A DNA stretch of 64,000 nt. Source: Gammaproteobacteria bacterium. Lineage in GTDB: Bacteria > Pseudomonadota > Gammaproteobacteria > S012-40. Below, piece after piece: positions 4,756 to 32,994 of the stretch; position 1 is the stretch's first letter; each line of letters starts with the position of its first letter. Both the position numbers and the translations under genes were made by a program. Location: contig JAOUHV010000010.1 in the NCBI GenBank assembly GCA_029884425.1, forward strand, positions 1-64,000, written 5' to 3'. Below the pieces are notes generated by a model, which did not search any database, was not told where the DNA came from, and worked only from the letters and a program-made list of their open reading frames with translations.

Positions 4756-4824
4756 AGTCCACAAGTTGGGCGCGATTAACGAGCTGTGCCACAGCGGCAC
4801 AATCATAAATTTAGGAGAGTAGTC

Positions 4825-5109: not shown

Positions 5110-5134
5110 TTAATGCCGCGAGCAGTCTGACCTT

Positions 5135-5659: not shown

Positions 5660-6477
5660 ACGAACAAAAACCCGGTGATCCCTACGCGGCAATGCCACTG
5701 GTTGCGCATCTTGTGGAATTGCGCGATCGATTAATTCGCGTTTTGTTGGCGGTGCTGGTGATGTTTGTTTGCCTGGTGCCGTTTTCCAACGAAATTTATT
5801 TGTTCGTCGCTCAGCCGCTGATGGCGCATTTGCCGGCGAATGCGTCGATGATTGCCACCGAAGTTACATCGCCATTTTTGACGCCATTTAAATTGACTAT
5901 GGTGGTGGCGATCTTTTTATCCATGCCGGTGTTTTTCTATCAGGCGTGGTCATTCATTGCGCCAGGACTGTATAAAAAAGAAAAACGCTTGATGATGCCC
6001 TTGCTGGCGTCGAGTATTGTGCTGTTTTTCTGCGGAGCATTATTCGCCTACTACGTGGTGTTTCCGATTATCTTTGCCTTTTTTACTGGTGCAGCGCCCA
6101 ACGGCGTCACGGTGATGACGGACATTTCCCGTTATCTGGATTTTGTGCTGGTAATGTTTTTTGCGTTTGGCTTTGCCTTTGAAGTTCCAGTCATAACAAT
6201 CGGTTTGGTGTGGATGGGCTTGGTATCGCGGCAAAGTCTGGCTGAAAAACGCGCCTACATCATCGTGGGTGCGTTTGTGATCGGTATGTTGTTGACGCCG
6301 CCAGATGTGTTTTCACAAACGTTGTTGGCGGTGCCGATGATCATGTTGTTTGAAATCGGCCTGTTCTTCTCCCGCTTTTTTGAGCGGGACAATGAATCCG
6401 TCGAGGATGAAGCGGAACAAATGGATCGCGCCGAAGAGACCGAGCGCGAATTGAACGCCAAAAAAGACGAGAAATAA
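5656..6477 (+). CDS. tatC: Twin-arginine translocase subunit TatC
   Basis: 273-residue polytopic membrane protein with six predicted helices. It is the docking subunit for twin-arginine signals. The N-terminal MPLVAHLVELRDRLIRVL contains the conserved cytoplasmic Glu and Arg residues, and YKKEKRLMMPLL opens the third helix. The C-terminus is a charged cytoplasmic tail. GTG start coupled to tatB. The stop directly abuts the stop of the convergent protease gene, with no room for a separate terminator. A likely client in this window is the RRNFLK-type ActB1 encoded at 9.6 kb. Confidence 0.95.
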   Translation: MNEQKPGDPYAAMPLVAHLVELRDRLIRVLLAVLVMFVCLVPFSNEIYLFVAQPLMAHLPANASMIATEVTSPFLTPFKLTMVVAIFLSMPVFFYQAWSFIAPGLYKKEKRLMMPLLASSIVLFFCGALFAYYVVFPIIFAFFTGAAPNGVTVMTDISRYLDFVLVMFFAFGFAFEVPVITIGLVWMGLVSRQSLAEKRAYIIVGAFVIGMLLTPPDVFSQTLLAVPMIMLFEIGLFFSRFFERDNESVEDEAEQMDRAEETERELNAKKDEK

Positions 6478-8940: not shown

Positions 8941-9591
8941 ATGCAATTTGTAAGCGGGTTTAATCCGGATTTCCACGTTGATAAGGGCGTAAGAGGGGTG
9001 CGTCGAATGAATCTCTTCTTGTTGAGGAAGGTGTTTGCCTCACTGGGTTTGGTTGTGGCGATGATGTTGTCGTTTGCAGCTAACGCGGAGTTGCCTGTGC
9101 CGGCGCATATCACTCCGCCGCCAGGTGAGCATAAAGGTGAGCATGTGCCACAGCCTATCGATTTTCCGCACGATCGGCATGTGAAGGACATGGGAATCAA
9201 CTGTATGTACTGCCATACCTATGCGCGTCGCAGTAAAGTTGCAGGTATTCCACCTACTAGTAAGTGTATGGGCTGCCATAAAGTGGTAGCAACCGATAAA
9301 CCTCGCATTCAGAAGCTGACGGAATATTGGCAGAAGGGTGAGTCACCCAAGTGGCTGAAAGTGCACGATGTACCTGATTACGTACATTTCACGCACGAGA
9401 AACATATTCGCAAGTTTGTATTTGATGCCAATTTCCCTGTGGAAGATGTGCAACAAGTTTGTGGCATCTGTCATGGAGAAGTTCGCGCAATGACAGTTGC
9501 TGAGAAAAAGAAACCTTTGACCATGGGCTTCTGCCGTCGTTGTCACGAGGCGAACGGTGGGCCGGGTGACTGCTGGAAATGTCACAAGTAG
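8941..9591 (+). CDS. actA: ACIII subunit ActA, pentahaem cytochrome c
   Basis: 216 residues from ATG 8941 with five CXXCH haem-c motifs (C88-H92, C109-H113, C174-H178, C198-H202, C211-H215). Five haems is the diagnostic content of ActA, the periplasmic multihaem subunit of alternative complex III (quinol:electron-acceptor oxidoreductase). A hydrophobic N-terminal segment ending SFAANA looks like a signal peptide or anchor. A second in-frame ATG at 9007 also has a purine-rich ribosome-binding site (AGAGGGG) and would give a more usual signal peptide; the true start is open. First gene of a seven-gene operon. Confidence 0.9.
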   Translation: MQFVSGFNPDFHVDKGVRGVRRMNLFLLRKVFASLGLVVAMMLSFAANAELPVPAHITPPPGEHKGEHVPQPIDFPHDRHVKDMGINCMYCHTYARRSKVAGIPPTSKCMGCHKVVATDKPRIQKLTEYWQKGESPKWLKVHDVPDYVHFTHEKHIRKFVFDANFPVEDVQQVCGICHGEVRAMTVAEKKKPLTMGFCRRCHEANGGPGDCWKCHK

Positions 9592-9629
9592 TTAACTCGA
9601 ACTGGGCCTAAATACTAAAGGGTAATTGA

Positions 9630-11831
9630 ATGAAAAGTGTAACGGTAAATCGTCGTAACTTTCTCAAGATGCTCGGTTGGGGTGGTGCTGGTACTGCGTT
9701 GACCGGCTGTGACCTGCCTACAACCGTGACTTTGGAGGAAGGCAAGGAAGAAGTTGTTTCCTATTTTATGCCGGAGGAATATGCGATCCCCGGTATTGGT
9801 GTGTGGTATGCGACAACCTGTACGCAATGTGAAGCTGCGTGTGGTTTGCATGGTCGCGTGCGTGAAGGGCGCGTGCTGAAACTGGAAGGAAATCCTGAAT
9901 CCAGTGTAAATCAGGGTCGCGCATGTATGATGGGCCAAGCAGGTTTGCAGGCTCACTACAATCCTGATCGCGTAACTTCGCCCATGCTGCGCAAAGGTGG
10001 TAGTTTGCAGGCAGTGTCCTGGAACGAGGCCATGGCGGAGCTGGGTAATCGTTTGAAGTCGGTTACCGGTGATCGTTTTGCGCTGGTGACTGGCACGGTG
10101 AGTGGTCATCAATCTGTTTTGACCGCGGCGCTGATGAGTGAAATGGGTTCGTCCAACCATTTTGCGCACGAAACAATTAATACTGCAGTGTGGCAGCAGG
10201 TTTGTCAGGACATGCTCGGTGACGCGCATGCGCGTTTGCGTATGGACAAGGCGCAGTGCGTGTTGTCGTTTGGTGCAGATTTCCTGGGTACCTGGATGTC
10301 ACCTGTGCACATGGCCGGTGAATATGCCAAGTTCCGTTCAGGTCAGCGTGGTACGTTGATTCAGGTGGAGCCAAAAATGACCCTGACCGGCGGTAACGCT
10401 GATCTGTGGGTTGCTGCCAAACCTGGTACTGAAGGTGTGCTGGCGCTGGGTATTGCTAACTTTATCGTTGATCGTGGCTGGAATAAGGCGGAAGTGCCTG
10501 CCGCTGTTCGCGCTTCGTTGGCGACATACACACTGCCTCGCGTGCAAGAAATTACGGGCGTTGAACCTGCCAAGATCAAGCGCATTGCCAGTTTGCTGTC
10601 CGAGCGGGCGCCAAGTCTGGTGCTGGCTGGCGAGTCTGCCACAGGCTATGAGCACGGTTACGACACTGCTGCGTCTGCGATGTTGCTCAATATTATTTTG
10701 GGTAGCGTTGGGACGACTGTTGTGGGTAGCACAGCGTTCCCAGAAAAAGGCATGCGAGCCAATGCGGGTAACACTTCAAGCCTGGTTAAATTCGCTAACG
10801 GCTTGCAAAACAAGGCGTACGATGTGGTGGTGTTTGCCAACACCAATCCAGCCTTTACCGCGCCGGCGGCACTGAAGCTCAGAGAAGGTTTGGCGGGCGT
10901 TGGCTTTAAAGTTGCCATCACCATGTTCCCTGATGAAACCAGTATGGAAGCAGATCTGGTACTGCCACTTTCTTCTTCACTGGAAGACTGGGGTACGCAT
11001 GTGTCTGCTTACCAAGGCGCAGACAAGGCATTGATGAGCGTTCAACAGCCATTGATGGAACCGCTGCACAAAGATACTCGCGGGTTTGGCGATATTCTGC
11101 TGGGTATGCTCAAGGCGCGTGGCGAGAAGTACGCACAGTTTGCAGACTACTACGCATTCTTGCAGGCTTCACTGAAGAACATGCCAGCGGGCGTGACTTC
11201 TATCAGCAATGAAGCTGCTTGGAATGCGCTGTTCCAGAAGGGTGTAATTGAAGCCGCTGGCTCTGCCGGTTCACTGTCACCTCGCATTGCGTCGGTTAAA
11301 GCGGGCAAAGTTGAAGAATCCAAAGACTATCCAATGCACTTGGTGCCATCTGCGCGTCTGGGATTGTGGGACGGTCGTCATGCGAATCTGCCTTGGTTGC
11401 AAGAAGCTCCAGATCAAATTGCCAAGGTTGTGTGGGACTCTTGGGCAGAAATGCATCCCAAAACCGCAGCGAAGCTTGGCGTTAAGAATGGTGATTTTGT
11501 GAATATCACCTCTGCTAGCGGTGCAGTTAAGACGCAAGTTTATGTGCATAAAGGCGTGCATCCAGAGGCGATCGCTGTGCCAATGGGCCAGGGGCACTCT
11601 GCCTATGGTCGCTACGCGAAAGGTCGTGGCGTGAATCCGTTGAGCATCCTGAATCCTCTGGTGGATGCAACCACGGGTGAGTTGGCGACCCATGCGACGC
11701 GCGTAAAAGTGGCTAAAGCGCATGAGCATCAAGTGCTGGTCAAGATGGGATCATCTGAAACGCAATTGGGACGCTCATTAGTTCGTACCGTTTCTGCTGA
11801 TGTGCTGCGTCGTACTGAAGGGGAGGCTTAA
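9630..11831 (+). CDS. actB1: ACIII subunit ActB1, molybdopterin-oxidoreductase-like, Tat lipoprotein
   Basis: 733-residue protein of the molybdopterin oxidoreductase (CISM) superfamily, the B1 part of ActB. The N-terminus has a twin-arginine signal (R8R9 in NRRNFLKM) running into a lipobox LTGC with Cys27, so it should be exported folded and lipid-anchored. It retains C64, C67, C71 and C99, spaced CX2CX3CX27C; this is the [4Fe-4S] (FS0) pattern of catalytic CISM enzymes. The C-terminal part contains the MopB-type beta-barrel (LGVKNGDFVNITSASG, then VPMGQGHSAYGRYAKG). In many ACIII operons B1 and the ferredoxin domain B2 are one polypeptide; here B2 is the next gene, 2 bp later. ActB1 of characterised ACIII lacks a molybdenum cofactor. 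Confidence 0.88.
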   Translation: MKSVTVNRRNFLKMLGWGGAGTALTGCDLPTTVTLEEGKEEVVSYFMPEEYAIPGIGVWYATTCTQCEAACGLHGRVREGRVLKLEGNPESSVNQGRACMMGQAGLQAHYNPDRVTSPMLRKGGSLQAVSWNEAMAELGNRLKSVTGDRFALVTGTVSGHQSVLTAALMSEMGSSNHFAHETINTAVWQQVCQDMLGDAHARLRMDKAQCVLSFGADFLGTWMSPVHMAGEYAKFRSGQRGTLIQVEPKMTLTGGNADLWVAAKPGTEGVLALGIANFIVDRGWNKAEVPAAVRASLATYTLPRVQEITGVEPAKIKRIASLLSERAPSLVLAGESATGYEHGYDTAASAMLLNIILGSVGTTVVGSTAFPEKGMRANAGNTSSLVKFANGLQNKAYDVVVFANTNPAFTAPAALKLREGLAGVGFKVAITMFPDETSMEADLVLPLSSSLEDWGTHVSAYQGADKALMSVQQPLMEPLHKDTRGFGDILLGMLKARGEKYAQFADYYAFLQASLKNMPAGVTSISNEAAWNALFQKGVIEAAGSAGSLSPRIASVKAGKVEESKDYPMHLVPSARLGLWDGRHANLPWLQEAPDQIAKVVWDSWAEMHPKTAAKLGVKNGDFVNITSASGAVKTQVYVHKGVHPEAIAVPMGQGHSAYGRYAKGRGVNPLSILNPLVDATTGELATHATRVKVAKAHEHQVLVKMGSSETQLGRSLVRTVSADVLRRTEGEA

Positions 11832-11833
11832 TC

Positions 11834-12682
11834 ATGTCCTTTAAGAACATCATGGAGAATTTTTCCGCCTACCGTAAGGCGGCGGAAGATGGTGGTCATC
11901 ACAAGTATGAACATCGCTGGGCGATGGCGATTGACCTGAATCTGTGTACTGGCTGTAACGCTTGTTCCACTGCTTGTTATGCAGAAAACAACCTGGCGGT
12001 TGTTGGTAAGGAGCGTTTCGAAAAAGGCCAGGCCATGCACTGGATGCGCATTGAGCGCTACTGGGAAGACAAGGATGCAGATCGTGATCATCCAGAAAAT
12101 GGCGCGCAATTCTTGCCGATGCTGTGTCAACAGTGTAACGCTGCAACGTGTGAACCAGTCTGTCCTGTAGCGGCAACGTATCACACGCCGGATGGTTTGA
12201 ATGCGCAGGTTTACAACCGTTGTATCGGTTCTCGTTACTGCAGCAACAACTGTCCGTTCCGTGTTCGTTACTTCAACTTCTGGTCGTACTATGAGTCTTC
12301 ATGGCCAGAACCGTTGAATCAACAGCTGAACCCAGATTTGACCGTTCGCGATAAAGGCGTAATGGAGAAGTGTACATTCTGTATTCAGCGTATTCGTGGC
12401 GCCAAAGATCAGGCTCAACGCGAGAGTCGTCCAGTACAGGACGGTGACTTTGTTACCGCGTGCGCACAGACATGTCCAACAGGTGCGATCGTGTTTGGTG
12501 ATACTCAAGATCCAAACAGCAAGGTCAGCAAGTTGTGGGCGAAGCATGAAGTGGCGCGTGGTCCTTATACGCAGAAGAAACCAAAGTCCAACGGTGAACT
12601 TCGTGGATACCGTGTGTTTGAAGAATTGAACGTTGATCCTTCAATCATGTATCTCGAGCGTGTACGTGAGACGGAAGTTTAA
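11834..12682 (+). CDS. actB2: ACIII subunit ActB2, iron-sulphur (ferredoxin-like) protein
   Basis: 282-residue ferredoxin of the DmsB/PsrB/NrfC type. Four cluster motifs are visible: C38/C41/C44/C48, C98/C101/C106/C110, C130-S133-C136/C140, and C180/C183 with C210/C214. The third motif reads CIGSRYC, with Ser133 in place of the usual Cys. It therefore has three ligands, consistent with the one [3Fe-4S] plus three [4Fe-4S] clusters known for ACIII. It passes electrons from the quinol site in ActC towards the haem subunits. No signal peptide is seen; export with Tat-borne ActB1 is plausible. It starts 2 bp after actB1. Confidence 0.9.
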   Translation: MSFKNIMENFSAYRKAAEDGGHHKYEHRWAMAIDLNLCTGCNACSTACYAENNLAVVGKERFEKGQAMHWMRIERYWEDKDADRDHPENGAQFLPMLCQQCNAATCEPVCPVAATYHTPDGLNAQVYNRCIGSRYCSNNCPFRVRYFNFWSYYESSWPEPLNQQLNPDLTVRDKGVMEKCTFCIQRIRGAKDQAQRESRPVQDGDFVTACAQTCPTGAIVFGDTQDPNSKVSKLWAKHEVARGPYTQKKPKSNGELRGYRVFEELNVDPSIMYLERVRETEV

Positions 12683-12722
12683 GGCTTCTTTGGGTGCTTG
12701 AATAAAATTTAAAGGAAAAGTC

Positions 12723-14150
12723 ATGGCTCAAGTTATTCAAGACAAGATCATCGACGAGAACCTGAATTGGTCGCAAATCAACCATGATTTGATTCGCACC
12801 ATGCAGGCACCGCGCAAGGCATACTGGGTTGCCTTCGCAGTGTGTGTGGCGATGATTTTGTGTGCAGTAGCTGCAGAAATTTACCAGTACAAAATGGGTA
12901 TGGGTGCAGGTGGCTTGAACAATCCTCACATGTGGGATATGTACATTGCTACTTTCGTATTCTGGATCGGTATGTCGCACGCGGGTACGTTATTGTCCGC
13001 GATTCTGCATATCATTCATGCCCAGTGGCGTAAGCCGATTTACCGCTTTGCTGAGGCGATGACAACGTTCTCGCTGATGACTGCCGGTTTCTTCCCCATG
13101 ATCCACTTGGGGCGCGTGTGGAACCTGTACTGGGTACTGCCGTATGTGTCAGATCGTGGTATTTGGCCGAACTTCCGCTCACCACTGGTGTGGGATGCGT
13201 TTGCGATCTCCACTTACCTGTCTGCATCGGCGCTGTTCCTGGTTATCGGTATGATTCCCGATATGGCGGTTCTGCGTGACCACACCAAGGGCTGGCGCAA
13301 AAAGGCTTATGGTCTGCTGGCGCTGGGTTGGAGAGGTGACGACCGTCAGTGGCGTAACTTCCGCAAGACATACATGTTGATGGCGTGCTTCCTGATCCCG
13401 TTGGCGATCTCGGTTCACTCTATCGTATCGTCTGACTTTGCGATGTCCATCATGCCTGGCTGGCACGTAACGACCTTCCCGCCCTACTTCGTAGCGGGTG
13501 CGTTGTACTCGGGCTGTGCGGCGATCATGACTCTGTTCGTGTGCTTGCGTTACTTCTTCCATTGGGAAGAGTACATGACGCTGAACATCATGGAAAAAAC
13601 CGCCAAGCTGACTTTCGCCATTGCGATGGTATGGAACTACCTGTTGTTCGTTGAGTTCGCTTCTGTTTGGTACGGCCACAGCGTGTACGACAAGGAACTG
13701 CTGATTGCCAAGTTTGTCGGGCCGTATGCACCGGTATTCTGGACGATGCTGTTCTGTGCCACGATTGCACCGTTTGCACTCTGTTTCCAGAAGCTAAGAC
13801 GCCACATGCCGACGATGTTCGTGTTGTCGCTGGTTCTGCAGTTGGGTATGTACACTGAACGCTGGATGATTGTTGCGCCGACTCTGGCATATGCACATTC
13901 ACCGCATCAGTGGGACATCATGTGGGCTGGCGTTATCCAATGGGGTATCGTGTTTGGTAGCTTTGGATGGTTTGCATTGCTATTCCTGGTTTTCGTGAAG
14001 GTGTTCCCTGCAATGTCTGCTTATGAGGTTAAAGAATTATGCTTCCACCTCAAGCATGAACATGAGCACGACGCGCATACGTCAAGTGAGGCTGGACATG
14101 CTCATGGCGCGAAAACGGTGACCGGCAGACCAGGATTGGAGGGCGCATAA
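12723..14150 (+). CDS. actC: ACIII subunit ActC, NrfD/PsrC-like membrane protein
   Basis: 475-residue integral membrane protein with about ten hydrophobic helices, of the NrfD/PsrC polysulphide reductase family. Characteristic stretches are WVAFAVCVAMILCAV, FWIGMSHAGTLLSAIL, RFAEAMTTFSLMTAGFFP and the late ALLFLVFVKVFPAMSAYEVKEL. In ACIII ActC holds the quinol oxidation site next to the [3Fe-4S] cluster of ActB2. The cytoplasmic C-terminal tail is unusually His-rich (HLKHEHEHDAH, then AGHAHG). Begins 40 bp after actB2 with an AAAGGAAAAG ribosome-binding site; actD follows directly. Confidence 0.92.
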   Translation: MAQVIQDKIIDENLNWSQINHDLIRTMQAPRKAYWVAFAVCVAMILCAVAAEIYQYKMGMGAGGLNNPHMWDMYIATFVFWIGMSHAGTLLSAILHIIHAQWRKPIYRFAEAMTTFSLMTAGFFPMIHLGRVWNLYWVLPYVSDRGIWPNFRSPLVWDAFAISTYLSASALFLVIGMIPDMAVLRDHTKGWRKKAYGLLALGWRGDDRQWRNFRKTYMLMACFLIPLAISVHSIVSSDFAMSIMPGWHVTTFPPYFVAGALYSGCAAIMTLFVCLRYFFHWEEYMTLNIMEKTAKLTFAIAMVWNYLLFVEFASVWYGHSVYDKELLIAKFVGPYAPVFWTMLFCATIAPFALCFQKLRRHMPTMFVLSLVLQLGMYTERWMIVAPTLAYAHSPHQWDIMWAGVIQWGIVFGSFGWFALLFLVFVKVFPAMSAYEVKELCFHLKHEHEHDAHTSSEAGHAHGAKTVTGRPGLEGA

Positions 14151-15240: not shown

Positions 15241-16275
15241 ATGGAAGGCTTTGGTAGCTGGTCCGTACTGACGACAAACTTTCTGATTGTGCTGTATTTG
15301 GCTCTTAATGGCGTGACATTGGCAGCGTTGCTGCATTTGGCAAATGCCCAATGGCGTTATAAGGTGCGTTATTTTGCGGTCGCAACAGCCGGTTTGTTTC
15401 CAGTAGCGTTTGTATTGTTGTGCATTTTGTTGATCAACGGAGAGTCTACTTTCCAGTGGTTGGCGCATGCGCATGACGGTGAACATCATATGCCGGGATG
15501 GCACAACTACACGTTCCTGGTGGTGCGTGAGGTGTTGGGTTTCTTTGCAATTGCCGGCTTGTATGGCTTGTTCATCAAATATCAGCATGAATCTGTGATT
15601 GATAGCAGCTATGAGGCGCAGCGTCGCTTCCGCAACGTGGCGATGTTGATTCCGGTGGCATACGTGCTGTACGCGACCATGGTTGCTTGGGACTTTGAAA
15701 TGACACAGATCCCGAATTGGCACAGCGCCAGCTACGGTGCGTACCATTTCGTGAGTAATTTCCATTTGTTCCTGGCATTCTTTGCGACCGTGCTGTACTT
15801 CCTGATGCGCTCAGGCAAGGCTGCTAAAGAAATTCCTCCGTATGTGTTGAATTTCCTGGCGCAGTTCATGCTGGCGATGACGATTCTGTGGACATACCTG
15901 TACTTCACTCAGTATCTGATCATTTGGTACGGTCGTTTGCCTGAAGAAATGTCACGCTTCGTGTCGATGATGACTCACGAACTGAGTCCGGTCTGGTGGA
16001 CCTTCCTGGCACTGAAATTTGTGATCCCCTTCTGCTCGCTGATCTTCGCTCGCGTGCGTCATACGCCAGCCCTGATCGTTGGCGTGGCTTGCAGCATTAT
16101 GCTGGGTAGCTGGCTGGAGCGTTACACCTGGATTTCAGGTTCCGTTCCTGGTGAGTTCCATCGCCTGCCGATGACATCTTTCATGGATCTGGTTTATACC
16201 GTGGCCGTGTTTGGTGCAGCGTTTGTTGCATTGCGCTGGAGCTATACGCGTTTCGGTCTGGTGAAGCAGTCCTAA
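15241..16275 (+). CDS. actF: ACIII subunit ActF, second NrfD-like membrane protein
   Basis: 344-residue polytopic membrane protein with about ten helices, the second NrfD/PsrC-like subunit of ACIII. Recognisable regions are FLIVLYLALNGVTLAALLH, WHNYTFLVVREVLGFFA and LWTYLYFTQYLIIWYGRLPEE, the last shared with ActC (MVWNYLLFVEFASVWYGHS). Such subunits are proposed to contribute to proton translocation. It is the last gene of the operon, followed 25 bp later by an intrinsic terminator, so the genes of its terminal oxidase are not in this transcript. Confidence 0.9.
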   Translation: MEGFGSWSVLTTNFLIVLYLALNGVTLAALLHLANAQWRYKVRYFAVATAGLFPVAFVLLCILLINGESTFQWLAHAHDGEHHMPGWHNYTFLVVREVLGFFAIAGLYGLFIKYQHESVIDSSYEAQRRFRNVAMLIPVAYVLYATMVAWDFEMTQIPNWHSASYGAYHFVSNFHLFLAFFATVLYFLMRSGKAAKEIPPYVLNFLAQFMLAMTILWTYLYFTQYLIIWYGRLPEEMSRFVSMMTHELSPVWWTFLALKFVIPFCSLIFARVRHTPALIVGVACSIMLGSWLERYTWISGSVPGEFHRLPMTSFMDLVYTVAVFGAAFVALRWSYTRFGLVKQS

Positions 16276-16299
16276 ACGAGAGCAATTTGTGGTATTCTG

Positions 16300-16330
16300 A
16301 GGCGGCTGTGGTTCCATAGCCGCCTTTTTT
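16300..16330 (+). terminator. Intrinsic terminator of the ACIII operon
   Basis: An 8-bp perfect stem AGGCGGCT / AGCCGCCT (16300-16307 and 16318-16325), extendable inward by a few pairs, is followed by six T residues. It lies between actF and sspA. Confidence 0.85.
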
Positions 16331-16377
16331 GCGAACGGTTGATTTTGATTGTTGTCCAGAGTTAAAGGACGATGCCG

Positions 16378-16406
16378 TTGATGTCGATATTCTAGCTTTA
16401 TATACA
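16378..16406 (+). promoter_or_regulatory. Predicted promoter of sspAB
   Basis: TTGATG at 16378-16383, 17 bp, then TATACA at 16401-16406 (each 4/6 to consensus), within an A+T-rich stretch 23 bp before the sspA ATG. It follows the act terminator, so sspAB has an independent promoter. Confidence 0.4.
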
Positions 16407-16428
16407 AAGGGTTATAGGGGATTAAACA

Positions 16429-17055
16429 ATGGGTGCAGTGGCTAACAAACGCTCGGTAATGACTTTGTTTTCCGGGCATTCTGATCCATACAGTCATCGG
16501 TCGCGTATTGTTCTGGCAGAAAAGAATGTGACCTACGATGTAGTATTGGTGGAGCCTGGCCAGTTGCCTGAGGATTTGATTGATCTCAATCCCTATAATT
16601 CCGTCCCTACCTTGCTTGACCGGGATTTGGTGCTATACAACTCTCGTGTGGTAATGGAATACCTGGATGAAAGATTTCCTCATCCGCCATTAATGCCGGT
16701 CGATCCCGTTGCCCGGGCGCGTACGCGTCTGATGCTGCATCGAATTGATGCGGATTGGTATGGACAGGTAAAGGCCATCGAAAGCTCTGACGAGAAGAAG
16801 CGGGAAGCCGGACGGAAAGAGTTGCGTGATTCGATTGTGTCTGTTGCTCCGGTCTTTGAGGCCAAGCCATTCTTCATGAGTGAAGAGTTTTCGCTGGTGG
16901 ATTGCAGCGTGGCACCGATTTTGTGGCGACTCAACAGTTATGGTATTGAATTGCCTGCCCAGGCGGCTTCGGTAAAAGAATATATGCGACGTTTGTTTGA
17001 TCGTCCTGCGTTCCACGAGAGTCTGACTGCGGCGGAAAAAGAGTTCAACAGATAA
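16429..17055 (+). CDS. sspA: Stringent starvation protein A
   Basis: 208 residues with a glutathione-transferase fold: thioredoxin-like N-terminal half (MTLFSGHSDPYSHRSRIVLAEK, PYNSVPTLLDRDLVLYNSRVVMEYLDERFPHP) and helical C-terminal half. SspA binds RNA polymerase and modulates stress transcription; it is not an active transferase. It overlaps sspB by one base (TAATG). In many proteobacteria sspAB directly follows petABC (cytochrome bc1); here the preceding operon is ACIII. Confidence 0.93.
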   Translation: MGAVANKRSVMTLFSGHSDPYSHRSRIVLAEKNVTYDVVLVEPGQLPEDLIDLNPYNSVPTLLDRDLVLYNSRVVMEYLDERFPHPPLMPVDPVARARTRLMLHRIDADWYGQVKAIESSDEKKREAGRKELRDSIVSVAPVFEAKPFFMSEEFSLVDCSVAPILWRLNSYGIELPAQAASVKEYMRRLFDRPAFHESLTAAEKEFNR

Positions 17056-19924: not shown

Positions 19925-20392
19925 GTGCGGGTGGAAAAGTTGGCATCTGAAGATCGAATTGACGTGCTGATTTTTCGTGTCGATGGGCGCCTACTTTGCC
20001 TGTCAGCACATTTTGTAAATCGCATAATTCCACTGGTACATATTGAACCGATAAGGAATTCAGCCAATTTTGTCGTTGGCAAAACCATAATTAATGCAGA
20101 ACCCATCGAAGTCTTTGATTTGACCGAGAGACTGGGGAAGCGTCGGAAGTATGGATATGCCATGGATGCATCTTTGTTACTTCTAAATAATTCAGGGGCA
20201 AAAAAGGCATTTGTTGTGGATTCTATAGAGGATGTTGTCAGTATATCCTGCTCATCAAAAACAGATGTGGTTCACCCTGTTGTATTGGAAAAATATGGTC
20301 AAGTCCTCATGATCAGTGACTTGGAGGTGGTCGTGGACTATGCTCAATGTGGAATGGAAACCGATCTAGTAATTAACCTGGGGAATGAATGA
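19925..20392 (+). CDS. CheW-like coupling protein (WspB-like position)
   Basis: 155-residue single CheW domain (VLIFRVDGRLLCLSAHFVNRII, NFVVGKTIINAEPIEVFDL, AFVVDSIEDVVSI). CheW proteins tether CheA to a chemoreceptor. A GTG start is chosen because AAGGAG lies 6 bp upstream; no in-frame ATG is available. First gene of a six-gene chemosensory operon. The order cheW-cheR-cheW resembles wspB-wspC-wspD. The DNA is visibly more A+T-rich than cca upstream. Confidence 0.8.
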   Translation: MRVEKLASEDRIDVLIFRVDGRLLCLSAHFVNRIIPLVHIEPIRNSANFVVGKTIINAEPIEVFDLTERLGKRRKYGYAMDASLLLLNNSGAKKAFVVDSIEDVVSISCSSKTDVVHPVVLEKYGQVLMISDLEVVVDYAQCGMETDLVINLGNE

Positions 20393-20393
20393 A

Positions 20394-21806
20394 ATGACTC
20401 GGGTGTATGAACGACAGCCTAGCGAGTGTGGGCAAAAAATAGCCGCATTGCTCAGGGAGAGAACATATATCACGGTCCAGTCCTATCAGTCAGAGAGTTT
20501 AGAAAAGATTGTTGCTGAACTGATTAATGATTGCGCAATGCAGTCATGTCTAGAATTGTACGAATTTCTAAGGTTGGCGTCTCACCTTAGTCCGCCATGG
20601 CAAAAATTGATAACCAAAATTGCGGTAGGCGAAAGTTATTTTTTTAGAGATAACAATTTAAGACAGTTTTTAACTCAGAAGTACTTCCCTCAGCTAATAA
20701 ATAAAAAGCGAAATATTGGAGATCATAGTCTAAAAATATGGAGTGCGGGCTGTTCGGCAGGGCAGGAATTGTATTCTGTCGTATTTATCTTGGATGAGTT
20801 GCTGCCAAAAAATGAAGTTTGGAATATCACGGCAGTCGGAAGTGATATTTGTGAGGAAAGTATTGCGAAGGCGAAGAAGTCTGAATATGGCGCATGGTCA
20901 TTTCGAAATATCGATCCTGTGGAAGTGGACCAATTTTTTGAAAAAAATACCAATGGGGGGTATGTAGTAAAAAAAATATATCAGGAAAAGTGTGAATTCA
21001 AAATGCAAAACTTAGTGGATGTTGATGAATGCATTGATGGCGAGTGTGGAAAATATGATCTAATCTTGTGCAGAAATGTGTTGGTTTACATGGATTCAGA
21101 TTTGGCGTCAAAGATCAGTGAAAAATTGATAGGCCAATTGAATCTGGGAGGCGTTTATATTCCGGGAACTATTGATACAGTTAATGAGGATTATTCGCTG
21201 GCTCAACGTGGTGGCTATGGCGGATTGACATATTGGACGAGATTCCATCCGGATAAAGACGAAAATTTCACTGAAAAAGCTACTCATGTGAAGTTTAGAT
21301 TGCCCGATGCGGATGGTGAAGATGCTGTAGTTTTACAGTCAGAGACTGAGAAAGTTAAGAAAGCTATTCCTGAACTTCGTGATGCAGAAGATTTAAATAT
21401 AGATAGGCTGGCAAATCATGGAATGCTTGAGGAAGCGATCGAATCTGCGGAGCTGTATCTGGTACAAAATCCCTTTGATTATAGTGTTAAGTTTACGCAG
21501 GCACTGATTCAAATTGAATTGGGGAAATATGAAGTCGCAGAGAGGATCATTAATGAAATTCTCCTGGTTAGCGATAGGTTTATGGATGTTTACTATTGTG
21601 CAGCGAAGCTGGCATTCCGACAAAAAAAATATCAGGTCGGTACTGAGTACCTGCTAACAATGCTAAAGAAATACGAAGAAAATGCAGAGACAATGCGGAT
21701 TGTAAAGGCTGGCGAATTGACGATTCCAGAATTGCTGGATATGGCCAGGTCTGACATTGATCGATATGGGCGGGCAGCGAAAAAAAGTGATGGAAATGAT
21801 TTGTAG
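20394..21806 (+). CDS. CheR-type chemoreceptor methyltransferase with TPR tail (WspC-like)
   Basis: 470 residues. The CheR domain (about 1-275) shows GESYFFRD, the SAM-binding loop WSAGCSAGQELYS, AVGSDICEESIAKAK and CRNVLVYM. It methylates receptor glutamates. The C-terminal part (about 335-465) is helical with TPR-like repeats (MLEEAIESAELYLVQNPFDY, IELGKYEVAERIINEIL), as in WspC-type enzymes of alternative chemosensory systems. ATG 20394 is favoured over 20385 because GGGG is then 10 bp upstream; both overlap or abut the preceding cheW. Confidence 0.85.
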   Translation: MTRVYERQPSECGQKIAALLRERTYITVQSYQSESLEKIVAELINDCAMQSCLELYEFLRLASHLSPPWQKLITKIAVGESYFFRDNNLRQFLTQKYFPQLINKKRNIGDHSLKIWSAGCSAGQELYSVVFILDELLPKNEVWNITAVGSDICEESIAKAKKSEYGAWSFRNIDPVEVDQFFEKNTNGGYVVKKIYQEKCEFKMQNLVDVDECIDGECGKYDLILCRNVLVYMDSDLASKISEKLIGQLNLGGVYIPGTIDTVNEDYSLAQRGGYGGLTYWTRFHPDKDENFTEKATHVKFRLPDADGEDAVVLQSETEKVKKAIPELRDAEDLNIDRLANHGMLEEAIESAELYLVQNPFDYSVKFTQALIQIELGKYEVAERIINEILLVSDRFMDVYYCAAKLAFRQKKYQVGTEYLLTMLKKYEENAETMRIVKAGELTIPELLDMARSDIDRYGRAAKKSDGNDL

Positions 21807-22347
21807 TCGTGCTTACAGCTATATGCCATCTGAGGAATCTGATGTTATTGAGTTGCGCTCAAGGCTGGAACGTGTGGAATCAGTGGTAAAGACAGATATT
21901 TTCCCGGAAATTCAGGATGAGGATCATATATTCTTTTATTTGGACGAAGGACTATTTGCATTACATTGTAAGCTGGTAGAGAAGATTGTAGAGTTTAAGC
22001 ATATTTTTAAGGTGCCATTTTCGCCTGACTTTGTCGCTGGCGTTATTAATTATCATGGAGAGTTGGTTACAGTACTTGATTTAGTTGAGTTATGGCGACA
22101 TGAGAAGGGTGTAATGGAGCCAAATCTCGTTATAGTCCTAAAGTCCGGTGAGCGAATGCTGGCGTTTTGCGCTGACAAAGTGGTAAACGGAAAAGTCTAT
22201 GTTGCAGGCTTCAATAAGGAAGTTGGAGAAAAAAAAGGTGATATTTTTGTCGATACGAGCATTTTTTTTGGAAAAGACAAGGTTGTTCATGTGAATGCGG
22301 ATCTTCTTTTTGAAGATGGTGCGCTAGAAGGGCTAATAAAGGAGTAG
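21790..22347 (+). CDS. CheW-like coupling protein (WspD-like position)
   Basis: About 185 residues. A short N-terminal extension is followed by a CheW domain (about 45-185: IFFYLDEGLFALHCKLVEKIV, PDFVAGVINYHGELVTVLDLVEL, NLVIVLKSGERMLAFCADKVV). It overlaps the methyltransferase 3' end. The start is uncertain: ATG 21790, ATG 21796 and GTG 21787 are all possible and none has a good ribosome-binding site. A second, divergent CheW in the same operon is typical of Wsp-like systems. Confidence 0.75.
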   Translation: MEMICSRAYSYMPSEESDVIELRSRLERVESVVKTDIFPEIQDEDHIFFYLDEGLFALHCKLVEKIVEFKHIFKVPFSPDFVAGVINYHGELVTVLDLVELWRHEKGVMEPNLVIVLKSGERMLAFCADKVVNGKVYVAGFNKEVGEKKGDIFVDTSIFFGKDKVVHVNADLLFEDGALEGLIKE

Positions 22348-22351
22348 CGAA

Positions 22352-23881
22352 TTGTTTGAAAATGACGTGTGGAAAATAGACTCGGTTGAGTGGGAGTCTA
22401 GGAAAAAATATATCGGATTTGATGAGGTCGATATCCGTATTCTGAAATCGCTTCATTCATTGGTAGAAAAAAATGCAGATGGAATAGTAGATTACTTCTA
22501 CGGAAATATTGAGCGCCATCCAGATTTGCTTTCCATAATTGAGAAATCTAATTCGTCAGTATCTAGATTGAAAATTGTCCAAAAAAAATATCTGATAGAA
22601 CTATTTGAGGGAGATTATGGTGAGTTGTATTGTAATCGGAGGTTGAGAATTGGGTTTATTCATAACAAAATTGGACTGACGCCAAAGTGGTATCTTGGTG
22701 CATATAGCGTATATTTTCAGCTGATAAACCCTCTTATTCAAAAAAAATATCGATTTTTCCCGAAGAAAAGACAAAAGGCTGAGCAGGCGTTGACCAGGAT
22801 TTTGTCGCTGGATTCCCAGTTGGCAATAGAATCTTATATCTACTCGATGACAAAATATATTGAGAGCGTGACTTTTTCCAAGGGGGAGATAGAGTCGACA
22901 GTTGCTTCATACCGGGCCGCAATAGAGCAAGTGTCCCATGGAAATTTGCGTATAAAACTGGATGTCGAAGATACCAAGGGTGATGATATGTCCGCTCTTG
23001 GCGGTCATATCAATCACATGGTCAGCAGTTTGAGTTCGATGAGTTCTTCGATCAAGTCCGCATCAAGCTCGTTAATGGTAACCTTAAGCGAGTTGCAGTC
23101 CGCGGCAAGCATGCAATCAGCAGCGGCATCACAGCAGGCTGTCTCCATTAATGAAACAACCACAACCCTTGAAGAAGTCCGTGTCAGTGCCAATCAAACC
23201 CTAGAGAAGGCGACGACGCTTGGAGCCGCCTCTGAAAAGACGCGCAAGAAAGGTGAGGATGGCTTAAGAGCAGTGGAGAGAATGATTGCCTCGATGGATG
23301 AGTTAAAATTTCGCGTCGATGGTATTGCGACAAACATATTGGCTCTAAGCATGCAGATTCAGCGAGCAGGTGAAATTGTTGCGATGGTAAGCGGGTTATC
23401 GCAGCAGTTAAAAATCCTTGCGCTGAATGCATCCATTGAAGCGGTTAAGGCGGGAGAGTTTGGTAAAGGGTTTGGGGTGGTTGCTGCGGAAGTTAAGAGT
23501 CTTGCGGAACACTCTCAGCAGGCAACATTGCAGGTGCAAAGCATATTGACAACCATTAGGGACTCCGCCGGCAAGGCGGTGATGGCTACTGAGGAAGGGA
23601 GCAAGGGTGCAACTGCGGGTGCAACTATTGTGGTTGACGTTGGCGAATCCATTCGGGAGCTAATGGGTGTTATTCACGAAGGAAATATCGCTAGTCAACA
23701 AATTGTGGCGGCGATTAGGCAGGGGAAAGCAGGGATTGATCAGATTGCAGCAGCTATGGAGGAAATTAATTTTGTAACCAGGCAGTTTGTTAGCGCAACG
23801 AAACAGACGACAGAAGCTGCTGCGGATTTGGGGAACATCGCTAAAACTCTGGATGATAGTGTCGGTGTATACACTCTTTAA
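22352..23881 (+). CDS. Globin-coupled sensor chemoreceptor (soluble, HemAT-like)
   Basis: 509 residues, no transmembrane segment. Residues about 10-175 form a sensor globin: the F-helix signature RIGFIHNKIGLTPKWYLGAY gives proximal His104, and Tyr50 is a candidate distal ligand. Residues about 230-500 are a methyl-accepting signalling domain with the hairpin tip LALNASIEAVKAGEFGKGFG, followed by VVAAEVKSLAEHS. HemAT-type proteins bind O2 at haem and signal to CheA. The gene uses a TTG start, supported by AAAGGAG 7 bp upstream. It sits between cheW and cheA, exactly where this operon needs its receptor. Ligand (O2, CO or NO) is inference. Confidence 0.88.
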   Translation: MFENDVWKIDSVEWESRKKYIGFDEVDIRILKSLHSLVEKNADGIVDYFYGNIERHPDLLSIIEKSNSSVSRLKIVQKKYLIELFEGDYGELYCNRRLRIGFIHNKIGLTPKWYLGAYSVYFQLINPLIQKKYRFFPKKRQKAEQALTRILSLDSQLAIESYIYSMTKYIESVTFSKGEIESTVASYRAAIEQVSHGNLRIKLDVEDTKGDDMSALGGHINHMVSSLSSMSSSIKSASSSLMVTLSELQSAASMQSAAASQQAVSINETTTTLEEVRVSANQTLEKATTLGAASEKTRKKGEDGLRAVERMIASMDELKFRVDGIATNILALSMQIQRAGEIVAMVSGLSQQLKILALNASIEAVKAGEFGKGFGVVAAEVKSLAEHSQQATLQVQSILTTIRDSAGKAVMATEEGSKGATAGATIVVDVGESIRELMGVIHEGNIASQQIVAAIRQGKAGIDQIAAAMEEINFVTRQFVSATKQTTEAAADLGNIAKTLDDSVGVYTL

Positions 23882-23896
23882 AAGGTATGGCGATCA

Positions 23897-26119
23897 ATGG
23901 AGTTAAGTGAAGAGCTGAAAATTCGCCTAAAAGCGATGTTCCAGCTGGATTTGGCGAAGCAAGTGAAAACGCTGCAGGGGGGCGTTCTAACTCTAGAGAA
24001 GCAAAATTTGGCCGAAGATGAGCGCGCACATGCTATGTCGGAGATTTTTCGTGCGGCGCACAATATCAAAGGGACTTCTGCCAGTATTGGTCTTGATACG
24101 GTAAGTCAGTTGGCTAAAGAGCTTGAGGAGTTGTTTTCATTTTTACGCGACTCAACCCTGGCGCTTCCTGCAGTTGCGGCAAACCTATTGCTGGATATTT
24201 GTGATTTCCTTCCTGAGCTTGCCCGGGAGGAGAAAGGTTCTTCTCAGAAAGCAAGCAAGATTATCAGTGATTTGCAGAACTTACTTGTGGCGATAAAGGC
24301 GGGTAGTGGTGATGCGTTATTGCTAAGTGAGTCGATGTTGTCGACTATCTCTCCCGGGATTTCTCCTGATTATTTGCAAAAAAAAGATACTGATGATGCG
24401 TCATTAGCGGTCGTTCGCCAATTGGAAGAATCCGCAGAGCAATTGGTATTGGGGTCATCGGGGGTTGCTGATCTTTTGTTATCAGTCGCGGAAATTCATG
24501 AGCAACTGTTAGGGCTCAGTGAGTTGATTGATCAGTGCAATGAAATTATGGCAAGGGAGAAAGATAGGTCACGGAGAGTGGCAATTGAACGAGTTTCAAT
24601 TTCCCTTGGTAGGTTGCTTGGTAGAGTGGGCGGTGGATTTGATCATGTGAATTATTTGGGTTCCATGGCATCAGATCATTTGAAGTCGGCAACTGTCGTT
24701 TTGAATGAGCAAATTAAAAACTTCAGGTTGATGCCGGTTGATCTTTTGTTTTTGCCGCTACCAAGACTTGTTAGAGATCTTAATCATCAGCTAGGGAAGC
24801 AGGTGAAGTTGGTGATGGAGCATGGAAATTTCTCGGTAGACAAACGGATAATCAAAGAGCTGGGGAATGCCATTGTCCATTTGGTAAGAAATGCGATGGA
24901 TCACGGTATTGAAGGGGTGGATGAGCGGAATGGTTGTGGAAAATCTATGGAAGCAACGCTATTCATAGAGGCTAGAAAGAACAATGATCGATTTGAAATA
25001 TCAATTAGCGACGATGGTCGTGGCATAGACCGAGATATGATTTATAAGCGCGCAGTTCAAAAAAATATAATTGAAGAATCGGCGGTTATGACAGATGAAG
25101 ATAAAGATTCTCTAATTTTTCTTCCTGGATTTAGTACTGCTGAGGTGGTGTCAGATATCTCTGGCCGAGGCGTTGGGCTTGATGCTGTTTATAATACAGT
25201 GGTCTCATTGGGTGGATGGTTGCGTTACACGACAAATGTAGGCAAGGGGACGAGATTTGATTTGTCGTTGCCAATTTCCATGCTGGCTGAGCACGGTGTT
25301 GTGGTAAGCGTTGCTGGTCAGCTCTATGCTTTTCAAACCATTTGGGTGGATTCGGTCGTTGATATTGCTACATTGAAAACTGAAGCCAGGCAAAATAAGG
25401 TGGGGGTGGTCATTGATGGTGATTGGGTTCCGTTGGTAAATCTCTCAGATTTGTTCGCGTTATCTCCTGTGGATGCTATTAATGATAAAGCAATGTTTGC
25501 CGTGGTTGTAAAAGATTCGTTGTCACGTATTGCCTTTGTTGTTGATGACGTTGTTGGTGATCGGGAGTTGATGGCAAAGAAATTGAATTTTCCCCAAGTC
25601 GGTTCAAAAATCATTAGTTCTGGAGCAATGACCAGTGCTGGCGAAGTGATATTTATTCTGGATCATCGAGAACTTGTTGATTATGTCTCTCGGGAGAATA
25701 AATTTGCAGAGTCTGGTGTTGCCATGCCAGCGAGAGGGGATGGCCATGTCTTGGTGGTTGATGATTTGATAACTTCGCGAACATTGATTCGTTACATCCT
25801 GGAGGCGGTTGGTTTTAAAGTGACTTCTGCCGTTGATGGTGCAGATGCCTGGAAAATGTTAAGCAACGGATTGGTTGTCGATTTATTGGTGACTGATGTG
25901 CAGATGCCAAACATGGATGGTTTTCAATTGACACAGAATCTTCGTTCTGACTCTCGCTTTACAACGCTGCCGATTATCATCGTGAGTTCTTGTGTGGATG
26001 CAGAGAGCTATCAAAAAGGCATGGACTGTGGGGCAAATGCCTACGTCGGCAAGAAAGATTTAGAGGCGACCGCTTTAACGCAAATGTCGCAGACATTGCT
26101 GAAGAAAGGGTTGCATTAA
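23897..26119 (+). CDS. Hybrid CheA histidine kinase with C-terminal receiver (WspE-like)
   Basis: 740 residues. An N-terminal Hpt domain has phospho-His55 (AAHNIKGTSASIG), then a dimerisation region, a HATPase domain with N box IVHLVRNAMDHGIEG, G1 box DDGRGID and later GRGVGLDAV, a CheW-like regulatory domain (about 485-615), and a receiver domain (about 625-740) with phospho-Asp667 in LLVTDVQMPNMDG. Fusion of CheA to a receiver is the WspE/FrzE arrangement. Stop overlaps the cheB ATG by one base. Confidence 0.88.
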   Translation: MELSEELKIRLKAMFQLDLAKQVKTLQGGVLTLEKQNLAEDERAHAMSEIFRAAHNIKGTSASIGLDTVSQLAKELEELFSFLRDSTLALPAVAANLLLDICDFLPELAREEKGSSQKASKIISDLQNLLVAIKAGSGDALLLSESMLSTISPGISPDYLQKKDTDDASLAVVRQLEESAEQLVLGSSGVADLLLSVAEIHEQLLGLSELIDQCNEIMAREKDRSRRVAIERVSISLGRLLGRVGGGFDHVNYLGSMASDHLKSATVVLNEQIKNFRLMPVDLLFLPLPRLVRDLNHQLGKQVKLVMEHGNFSVDKRIIKELGNAIVHLVRNAMDHGIEGVDERNGCGKSMEATLFIEARKNNDRFEISISDDGRGIDRDMIYKRAVQKNIIEESAVMTDEDKDSLIFLPGFSTAEVVSDISGRGVGLDAVYNTVVSLGGWLRYTTNVGKGTRFDLSLPISMLAEHGVVVSVAGQLYAFQTIWVDSVVDIATLKTEARQNKVGVVIDGDWVPLVNLSDLFALSPVDAINDKAMFAVVVKDSLSRIAFVVDDVVGDRELMAKKLNFPQVGSKIISSGAMTSAGEVIFILDHRELVDYVSRENKFAESGVAMPARGDGHVLVVDDLITSRTLIRYILEAVGFKVTSAVDGADAWKMLSNGLVVDLLVTDVQMPNMDGFQLTQNLRSDSRFTTLPIIIVSSCVDAESYQKGMDCGANAYVGKKDLEATALTQMSQTLLKKGLH

Positions 26120-27153
26120 TGCTGAAGGTGTTGATCGCTGAAGATACCCAGGTCGTTGCACAAGTGATTCGCTACGTGCTTGAGCAGGTAGGCGATATCG
26201 AGATTGTTGGCATTGCCGAGAATGGTGCGCAGGCCGTTGAGTTGGTTCGAACCTGTCAGCCAGATATTGTCACCATGGATATTCATATGCCGGTGCTTAA
26301 CGGCTTGGACGCAATCCGCCAAATTATGGCAGAGTGTCCGGTGCCAATTGTTGTGGTTAGTGCAACGGTAAATGCTGCGCAGCAATATGACAGTTTTGAA
26401 GCAATAGAAAGTGGCGCATTGGCCTTGTTGCCCAAGCCGCCATCGATTGATTCAGCGGCATTTGTCGAGTATTGCGCATTGCTGGTGAATACAGTTCGTG
26501 CGATGGCTGAAATAAAAGTAGTGCGCAGAAAGCGCGAAAGTATGCCGCGGGTTACTGCACCGCTAAATAAAATGTCAAGCGCATTGGTGACGCGAAAATT
26601 GGTGCTGCTTGGTGCCTCCACTGGTGGGCCGCATGCTGTACGAGAAATTTTGCAAGGATTGCCGGCCAATTATCCCTGCCCCGTTGTTATTGTGCAGCAC
26701 ATTACATCTGGTTTCCTGGATGGATTGATTGCCTGGTTGCGTAGCAAGTGTGCGCTGAAAATCAAGGTGGCGAGTAATGGCGAGGTTTTGCAGGCTGGCT
26801 CGGTGTATTTTGCGCCGGATAATGTTCACTTGGAGTTAGACGCTGTCGGGGATCAGATAGTTGCTCGATACAGTGATGCTGCGCCAGTGAATGGGTTCAG
26901 ACCGTCGATTGATCGTTTATTTGGTTCGATTGAGCCTGGGTTGGCGCGTGGTGTCGTCGCCGCTGTATTGACCGGCATGGGGGGCGACGGTGCGAGAGGT
27001 TTGTTGGCGCTAAAATCCAGCGGTGCACTCACTTTGGCGCAAGACGAGCAAAGCAGTGTTGTGTACGGCATGCCGGCTGTTGCAGTACAAATAGGGGCGG
27101 CAATGCAGGTATTGTCACTGGAAGGTATCGCGGCAGTGTTGGCCGACCGATAA
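26119..27153 (+). CDS. CheB-type receptor methylesterase/response regulator (WspF-like)
   Basis: 344 residues. An N-terminal receiver (phospho-Asp54 in VTMDIHMPVLNG) is joined by a linker to the methylesterase domain with the catalytic triad Ser167 (GASTGGP), His194 (VQHITSGF) and Asp290 (GMGGDGARG). It removes methyl groups from the receptor when phosphorylated by the kinase. The ATG overlaps the cheA stop by one base. It closes the operon; no cheY, cheD, cheZ or GGDEF response regulator follows. Its base composition is closer to the genome average than the genes before it. Confidence 0.88.
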   Translation: MLKVLIAEDTQVVAQVIRYVLEQVGDIEIVGIAENGAQAVELVRTCQPDIVTMDIHMPVLNGLDAIRQIMAECPVPIVVVSATVNAAQQYDSFEAIESGALALLPKPPSIDSAAFVEYCALLVNTVRAMAEIKVVRRKRESMPRVTAPLNKMSSALVTRKLVLLGASTGGPHAVREILQGLPANYPCPVVIVQHITSGFLDGLIAWLRSKCALKIKVASNGEVLQAGSVYFAPDNVHLELDAVGDQIVARYSDAAPVNGFRPSIDRLFGSIEPGLARGVVAAVLTGMGGDGARGLLALKSSGALTLAQDEQSSVVYGMPAVAVQIGAAMQVLSLEGIAAVLADR

Positions 27154-31458: not shown

Positions 31459-32994
31459 ATGGCAGAAGGAACAAAAGGGAGTGATGTTGATCGTTGGCGT
31501 TTGATGTTGGAGGACGCTGAACGTGAGCATCAACAGGCTCAGCAGCGTTGGTCGGAGGACCAGGCAACGCTGTGTACGGCGATCAGTCGCCTTACACACC
31601 AGCTGGATCACACGGAGGGCGCGAATGACCTGATCCGGGTTATTCGTGATGCGGTGAAAGGCTCGGTCGATTTGGCCGCACTTAAAGCCGCGAGTGAGCA
31701 ATTGGCGCATCGCAGCTTGCAGCCGTCATCTGCCAAAAAAGAAAATTCTTCGGTCACCGACCTGCACCATCTGCAATATTTTTTCAGCAAACTGAGCCTG
31801 CCTGATAGCCGCCAGATAACGCTACAAGAATTGGTTGGGCGTATTGAAAAAGCGCACCAGCCCGAGGAGTTTATTGAAATTCTGGATGCTTCCGTAGCGT
31901 TGTTACAGCCGCTGATCAGTGTTGGCGAGCAGAACGCCAGTGCGCAAGTGTGTTCGCTGATGGTGTCAGAAATCATGGTTCAGCTATTAGAACGGTTGAG
32001 TCTGCCATCAGAAGTTAGTCAGCGTCTGCAGACGCTCAGAAAAAGTCTGGAACAAGGCGTAGAGCAGGGAGCCTGGTCTGGGGTGCTGGAAGAAATTGCC
32101 GACATGGCGGCTGATATTCGCGGAAAAATTCACGCCGAACGTCTTGAGACAGAACAGTTCTTGAAGGGCGTTACCGAGCGGCTGGATGACATGGATGGAT
32201 TTTTGTCGGGCTCAGAAAAAAACTTGTTGCGATCGCAACAAGAGGGTCAGCAGCTCAACGATGCGGTCAGCAAAGAAATGCAGGGTCTGCATGCGACTAT
32301 TACGGCGAGTAAAGATATTGATAACCTTCGGCGCGATATCAGTTTACAACTCAAAAATATTACTGGCCACTTGAGTGTGTTTCGCTCCAATCAGAGTCAA
32401 CAACATAGCGAGGCTGTACTCGAAGTCAAAAAGCTCAAGGAGCGTTTAAGCAAGGTTGAAGGCGAAGCGAAGAAATTGCGCGAGCGTATTGTGTTTGAGC
32501 GCAAGCAGGCGGTGACGGACAGTTTGACAGGCTTGGGTAATCGTCTGGCCTATGATGAACGCATTGCGCATGAATTGGCGCGCTGGCGCAGGTTTCATCA
32601 AGACTCTGCGTTGGTGGTGTGGGACGTTGATTTTTTCAAACGTATCAACGATTCGTATGGACATGCTGCCGGCGATAATGCGCTGCGTAGCATAGCAAAA
32701 ATTGTTGCAGGAAAAATTCGTGAAACTGATTTTCTTGCCAGGTATGGCGGCGAAGAATTTGCGCTGTTTATGCCTGGCGCAGATTTGGCTGCAGCGATGA
32801 ATGTAGCTGACAAGCTGCGTTTGGCGGTTCAGGAAGCCAATTTCCGGTTTCGTGGCGAACCGGTACAAATCACGATTTCTGCCGGTGTAACCCAGTTGCG
32901 CGAAGGCGATACGCCGCACACCTTGTTTGAACGTGCAGACCAGGCGTTGTACAGGGCAAAAGAACAAGGACGAAATCGCGTCATATCAGGCTGA
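31459..32994 (+). CDS. Diguanylate cyclase with N-terminal helical domain (DgcP-like)
   Basis: 511 residues. The first ~330 are almost entirely helical and charged, with a long coiled coil just before the catalytic part (VLEVKKLKERLSKVEGEAKK). The C-terminal GGDEF domain begins DSLTGLGNRLAYDE, has VVWDVDFFKRINDSYGHAAGD, and the active-site signature RYGGEEF. A product-inhibition I-site RETD lies exactly five residues before GGEEF. It should make c-di-GMP from two GTP in the cytoplasm. Domain layout resembles Pseudomonas DgcP, a polar diguanylate cyclase, but orthology is not proven. ATG 31459 lies 57 bp after the EEP gene. Confidence 0.85.
   Translation: MAEGTKGSDVDRWRLMLEDAEREHQQAQQRWSEDQATLCTAISRLTHQLDHTEGANDLIRVIRDAVKGSVDLAALKAASEQLAHRSLQPSSAKKENSSVTDLHHLQYFFSKLSLPDSRQITLQELVGRIEKAHQPEEFIEILDASVALLQPLISVGEQNASAQVCSLMVSEIMVQLLERLSLPSEVSQRLQTLRKSLEQGVEQGAWSGVLEEIADMAADIRGKIHAERLETEQFLKGVTERLDDMDGFLSGSEKNLLRSQQEGQQLNDAVSKEMQGLHATITASKDIDNLRRDISLQLKNITGHLSVFRSNQSQQHSEAVLEVKKLKERLSKVEGEAKKLRERIVFERKQAVTDSLTGLGNRLAYDERIAHELARWRRFHQDSALVVWDVDFFKRINDSYGHAAGDNALRSIAKIVAGKIRETDFLARYGGEEFALFMPGADLAAAMNVADKLRLAVQEANFRFRGEPVQITISAGVTQLREGDTPHTLFERADQALYRAKEQGRNRVISG

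Follow-up and report, generated by a model that had tools for sequence, protein, structure and literature searches.

A soluble globin-coupled chemoreceptor in a predicted non-flagellar chemosensory operon of a gammaproteobacterium

The DNA analysed here (the window) is a stretch of 64,000 nucleotides from contig JAOUHV010000010.1 of a gammaproteobacterial genome (assembly GCA_029884425.1; the window genome). Positions 19925-27153 contain six genes on the + strand that, judged from their domains, encode a complete chemotaxis-like signalling pathway whose sole receptor is a putative soluble haem sensor of the oxygen type. With moderate confidence, we read the operon as a self-contained chemosensory pathway of the alternative-cellular-function (ACF) class, in which a haem-globin receptor would sense oxygen (O2), or nitric oxide (NO) or carbon monoxide (CO), adapt by methylation and control cyclic di-guanosine monophosphate (c-di-GMP). 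Such a pathway would probably let the cell fit its lifestyle to oxygen, separately from the surface-sensing Wsp system. A preliminary description of this DNA had proposed a Wsp pathway rewired to sense gas; most likely the operon is Wsp-like in its working, but not Wsp by descent.

All six reading frames are intact, and neighbouring genes overlap or lie no more than 15 bases apart. The genes and their Pfam matches, which are far beyond chance, are as follows (MCP, methyl-accepting chemotaxis protein; ORF, open reading frame).

19925..20392, + strand: cheW1, CheW-like coupling protein (WspB/WspD-like role); PF01584, 3.3e-11; GTG start, AAGGAG upstream
20385..21806, + strand: cheR, receptor methyltransferase with TPR-like C-terminal tail; PF01739, 7e-36
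21790 (about)..22347, + strand: cheW2, second coupling protein; PF01584, 4.5e-14; overlap with the 3' end of cheR; uncertain start in an ORF that is open from 21757
22352..23881, + strand: globin-MCP, soluble globin-coupled chemoreceptor; PF11563, 2.5e-37, and PF00015, 1.2e-25; TTG start after AAAGGAG
23897..26119, + strand: cheA, histidine kinase with Hpt, HATPase, CheW and receiver domains; PF01627, PF02518, PF01584, PF00072
26119..27153, + strand: cheB, receiver-methylesterase; PF01339, 4.2e-56, and PF00072, 5.8e-18; ATG at 26119 overlaps the cheA stop

These domains bear out the Wsp-like gene content described earlier for all six proteins. The TPR-type matches in the CheR tail were weak and sub-threshold only (TPR clan, residues 345-423 and 322-434). 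The previously preferred GTG start of cheW1 at 19925 is retained over the longer ORF start, because AAGGAG sits directly upstream. Scans for promoters and terminators gave nothing above chance level.

The receptor consists of a protoglobin domain (about residues 13-163), a HAMP-like linker and a signalling hairpin of 40H length. Pfam and Foldseek identify it as a globin-coupled sensor of the HemAT type, i.e. a protoglobin fold joined to an MCP signalling domain. Sequence matches of the N-terminal domain include B. subtilis HemAT (6.5e-21), the AfGcHK sensor and a Geobacter globin-coupled sensor. An AlphaFold model was built from five relatives (predicted local distance difference test, pLDDT, 88.8; predicted template modelling score, pTM, 0.84), and the best PDB matches of the predicted globin fold were HemAT (top, 1or4) and AfGcHK sensor domains, with template modelling (TM) scores up to 0.81 by query length. 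His104 aligned with the proximal His123 of HemAT and Tyr50 with the distal Tyr70, and both residues are invariant in 8/8 aligned receptors. No transmembrane-like segment was found in the receptor, where the maximum 19-residue hydropathy was 1.24, compared with 2.2-3.1 in membrane relatives. The Pfam matches, the HemAT alignment and the lack of a membrane segment thus uphold the claim of a cytosolic globin-coupled receptor with His104 as predicted haem ligand and an MCP domain. The idea of a haem-bound gas as input to a Wsp-like pathway also appears right: the receptor is predicted to bind haem, with O2 as its ligand and NO or CO as possible ones.

From tip to C-terminus the signalling hairpin counts 140 residues, which fits arms of 20 heptads each (40H). 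It aligns gap-free with a WspA and with a Halomonas cluster-2-type receptor, whereas flagellar-type receptors are about 14 or more residues shorter per arm. Several other receptors of the window genome equal it in hairpin length, with no net length change in the alignment. Length alone therefore isolates no array, and heptad class was rejected as proof of array insulation. The scores of the signalling half reached 220-290 bits against receptors of the same operon type, whether globin or membrane-bound, versus 71 bits against a WspA (of Paraburkholderia eburnea) and 48-83 bits against flagellar and other tested receptors of the window genome. The gap between 220-290 and 48-83 bits argues that receptor and kinase belong together, and indicates that the two form a dedicated pair.

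Maximum-likelihood analysis of the CheA core gave two trees, both of which group the window CheA with kinases from operons that have the same gene order (support 98/97 and 97/96). The window CheA fell outside the flagellar clade (99/94), in agreement with its earlier assignment as non-flagellar. The WspE proteins formed a separate clade (100/100) that did not include the window CheA, and a clade uniting both was disfavoured by the approximately unbiased (AU) test (p = 0.030 and 0.047). The catalytic motifs of CheA are intact in the alignment, and neither a P2 domain nor the P3 dimerisation domain was detected by Pfam. CheAs with a receiver and without P2 are usual in the ACF, Tfp, F3 and F5 classes, and an undetected P3 is common (PMC10782961). 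A non-flagellar CheA with a receiver and no P2 found, combined with a receptor of 40H length, identifies the operon, on the evidence of these sequence features, as an ACF system; the trees place it in a lineage other than Wsp. The CheAs of the globin operons did not group as a single clade, but the test did not reject such a clade either (AU p = 0.147), so that the globin fusion may have arisen once or several times.

How far, then, does the resemblance to Wsp extend? The Wsp system (wspABCDEFR of Pseudomonas; ACF class) has been defined by wspA-wspF synteny plus wspR or wspH (PMC8552884). The window operon shares its set of protein types (one MCP, two CheWs, CheR-TPR, CheA with a C-terminal receiver, and CheB) and a receptor in the length class of WspA, and c-di-GMP is the likely output in relatives of the window operon, as it is for Wsp. 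Even so, a true Wsp operon in which WspA was swapped for a globin receptor is highly improbable. Besides the separate positions of its CheA and its signalling domain, the window operon has the order cheW-cheR-cheW-MCP-cheA-cheB, with the MCP in fourth place, whereas Wsp is MCP-first. Its input is a cytosolic globin rather than the membrane protein WspA, and no REC-GGDEF or hybrid kinase gene adjoins it, so that an adjacent wspR or wspH is missing. The GGDEF gene at 31459-32994 was rejected as a WspR; it has a DGC-coil but lacks a receiver domain. Moreover, the nearest kin are non-Wsp operons of identical gene order, in which the globin receptor is fixed across several bacterial lineages.

Wsp-type genes also occur separately in the same genomes. 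Contig C44 of the window genome (L072, 6278-11586) carries cheW, cheA, cheB and a REC-GGDEF gene of the wspD-E-F-R type, in a cluster that runs off the contig end, and its CheA groups with the WspEs in the tree. Besides its globin operon, P. eburnea also carries a canonical Wsp operon that is complete (L103; MCP-cheW-cheR-cheW-cheA-cheB-REC-GGDEF). In these two genomes the globin operon is therefore not a converted Wsp. The C44 CheA is unusually long (908 amino acids) and has two Hpt matches.

Full-length globin receptors that are 42-54% identical to the window receptor and sit in the same gene order occur in P. eburnea, three Zetaproteobacteria and five further genomes that belong to three families of the window's class. 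The complete order cheW-cheR-cheW-MCP-cheA-cheB is present at six loci (L011, L012, L100, L101, L102 and L124); at three others (L009, L010 and L125) the order is the same as far as the contigs reach, since these operons are cut by the contig end. The preliminary description named HemAT in aerotaxis but no case within a Wsp-type cluster, and suggested a genome search; the arrangement recurs in nine other genomes. By its synteny, the combination of globin receptor and gene order is a conserved module. The module is patchily distributed: a search of 12 other genomes from the same family as the window genome found no globin receptor, and the operon occurs in only 3/5 genomes of one genus. In the window, five of the six operon genes have a G+C content of 0.40-0.445 and cheB of 0.52, compared with about 0.50 in the flanks. 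Patchy presence and low G+C together make horizontal spread likely.

The same features could point to a system in decay, or to an orphan that was gained by horizontal transfer without its output gene and now has little function. The long CheA branch, the missing adjacent regulator and the divergence of the proteins would fit such a fate, as 5/6 window proteins are 6-12 points less similar to their orthologues than these orthologues are to each other. However, all six frames are intact, the catalytic and haem residues are retained, and the conservation of the receptor (49%) is close to that among other members (54%). We consider decay quite unlikely.

The genomic neighbourhood of related clusters suggests an output. 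Among the proteobacterial clusters of this CheA lineage with visible flanks, 15/17 have a c-di-GMP enzyme adjoining or near the che genes, although this count treats related genomes separately and the lineages are not independent samples. Only the window and L101 depart from this pattern; at L101 an Hpt protein takes that place. A REC-REC-GGDEF gene follows cheB at L011, L100, L124 and L125 (P. eburnea and three genomes of one genus), with about 410 bits between the protein of P. eburnea and those of the one-genus group. In two Zetaproteobacteria (L009 and L012), a REC-HD-GYP gene overlaps cheW1. At L102 (genome G247; 3589-6004), cheB is followed by genes for an Hpt-like protein, CheY, a CheC-like phosphatase and a PAS-GGDEF protein; this mix of chemotaxis phosphatase and diguanylate cyclase is unusual. 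REC-GGDEF or REC-GGDEF-EAL genes were also found near 8/8 non-globin gammaproteobacterial relatives with visible flanks, some of them a few hundred bases off or on the opposite strand; the domains were assigned by Pfam at L013, L015 and L018 and by similarity to these at the other loci. These neighbours support c-di-GMP as the usual output of the CheA lineage, mostly through an enzyme with a receiver domain, and by analogy a non-motility output is predicted for the window operon.

An output in motility would be expected if the globin receptor fed flagellar or pilus movement like HemAT, either via a free CheY or in a mixture with the cell's other receptors. Experimentally validated globin-MCPs do act in aerotaxis (PMC13401364), the window genome has flagellar FlhA and 15 MCPs, several of its receptors have a length that would permit mixing, and the G247 operon includes CheY and CheC. 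Yet the window CheA lies outside the flagellar clade, a separate CheA is located near the flagellar genes of the window genome, and no flagellar gene lies within or beside the operon. Since, in addition, the signalling half is remote from all tested receptors of its own genome and relatives are accompanied by c-di-GMP enzymes, aerotaxis seems unlikely.

In the window genome, the best candidate for the output of the proposed c-di-GMP pathway is an unlinked gene for a putative REC-HD-GYP phosphodiesterase on contig C28. This protein is the reciprocal best match of the cluster-linked regulator of the Zetaproteobacteria (370-377 bits, with the next best at 175-218 bits). Several observations weigh against the proposed pathway. 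No output regulator adjoins the window operon, and no remnant of one was detected beside cheB by tblastn. The REC-HD-GYP subfamily is not confined to che clusters, as Ideonella has a 53.5% identical copy without che genes; the C28 protein was therefore downgraded from proven partner to candidate output only. The REC-REC-GGDEF proteins of L011 and L100 have no close counterpart among the 28 GGDEF proteins of the window genome (best about 143 bits, vs 410 bits). The long branch of the window CheA (3.3-3.7) makes its exact place within the lineage unsure. Finally, Val76 of the receptor stands at the position of the distal Thr95 of HemAT, and the ligand preference may therefore differ.

If the pathway works as its domains suggest, haem on His104 of the soluble receptor would bind O2 (or possibly NO or CO), and the ligand-induced change would pass through the HAMP-like linker to the 40H signalling hairpin. 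Together with CheA and both CheWs, the hairpin would build an array. CheA would autophosphorylate, and its phosphate would go to CheB, to an output response regulator and to the kinase's own receiver, which may act as sink, buffer or gate. Adaptation of the receptor by methylation, as a form of memory, would fall to CheR and CheB, and the output regulator would change c-di-GMP, in the window genome possibly through the unlinked C28 protein. The early steps of this scheme, from haem binding onward, are predicted from conserved domains and residues; array formation and phosphotransfer are likewise predicted, and the output is drawn from the neighbours of related operons.

Other known systems share parts of this design. 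Chemosensory cluster 2 of Halomonas titanicae is Wsp-like, with the order MCP-cheB-cheR-cheA-cheY-DGC-cheW-cheW (DGC, diguanylate cyclase; PMC5907407). It resembles the window operon in being non-flagellar, with a receiver-bearing CheA, CheR-TPR and a 40H receptor, and its DGC has two receivers. Its gene order differs, however, and in a Halomonas locus of this layout (L130) the CheA falls outside the clade of the window CheA and the receptor scores only 72 bits against the window receptor. The aerotaxis transducers of the HemAT type have the same protoglobin sensor, MCP signalling hairpin, proximal His and distal Tyr, but they partner flagellar chemotaxis kinases, whereas the window receptor is encoded within a dedicated operon of the ACF class and carries Val76 in place of Thr95. 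A published precedent is Cc-5 of Corallococcus coralloides, a separate che cluster that includes a predicted oxygen-sensing MCP with globin and PAS domains (PMC6194562). In globin-coupled diguanylate cyclases of the DgcO type an oxygen-type globin also controls c-di-GMP, but as a single protein, without an array or methylation adaptation. According to reviews, validated globin chemoreceptors steer swimming, and globin control of c-di-GMP is exerted by single fused proteins (PMC13401364, PMC8846402). We found no description of a globin-receptor ACF operon with c-di-GMP partners in the open-access literature searched; subscription papers were outside this search, and novelty is thus unproven.

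More tentatively, the related operons may represent a family of dedicated oxygen-sensing arrays in the cytosol, scattered in its occurrence and apart from Wsp. In such a family, one globin-receptor core would be joined, lineage by lineage, to c-di-GMP synthases or hydrolases and could drive opposite lifestyle outputs, with the unlinked REC-HD-GYP phosphodiesterase as the partner in the window genome. If true, a globin receptor in a complete adapting array with c-di-GMP outputs would place lifestyle under oxygen control that has both memory and gain, and the swaps between synthase and hydrolase partners would be natural experiments in output sign. The question of sensing would become separable from the unclear stimulus of WspA, as the likely stimulus here is a defined, titratable gas.

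The window genome encodes two further protoglobins: a second globin-coupled sensor, a protoglobin-GGDEF protein of the DgcO type, on contig C27 (about 15829-16809), and a third protoglobin of 196 amino acids on contig C46. Contig C4 (L075, 5525-8311) encodes a 928-amino-acid protein with an N-terminal CheW domain and a C-terminus that is LysM-like by eye; it is not a CheA. Elsewhere in the window, genes encode a PAS-GGDEF protein (48712-49590) and a PAS-GGDEF-EAL protein (59645-61966), and a class I adenylate cyclase gene lies at 45695-48547. The window also contains a 6S RNA gene at 41049-41227 (Rfam RF00013, 94 bits), and a respiratory complex operon at 8941-14150 that encodes a multihaem cytochrome c, a molybdopterin oxidoreductase, a 4Fe-4S protein and an NrfD-type membrane subunit.

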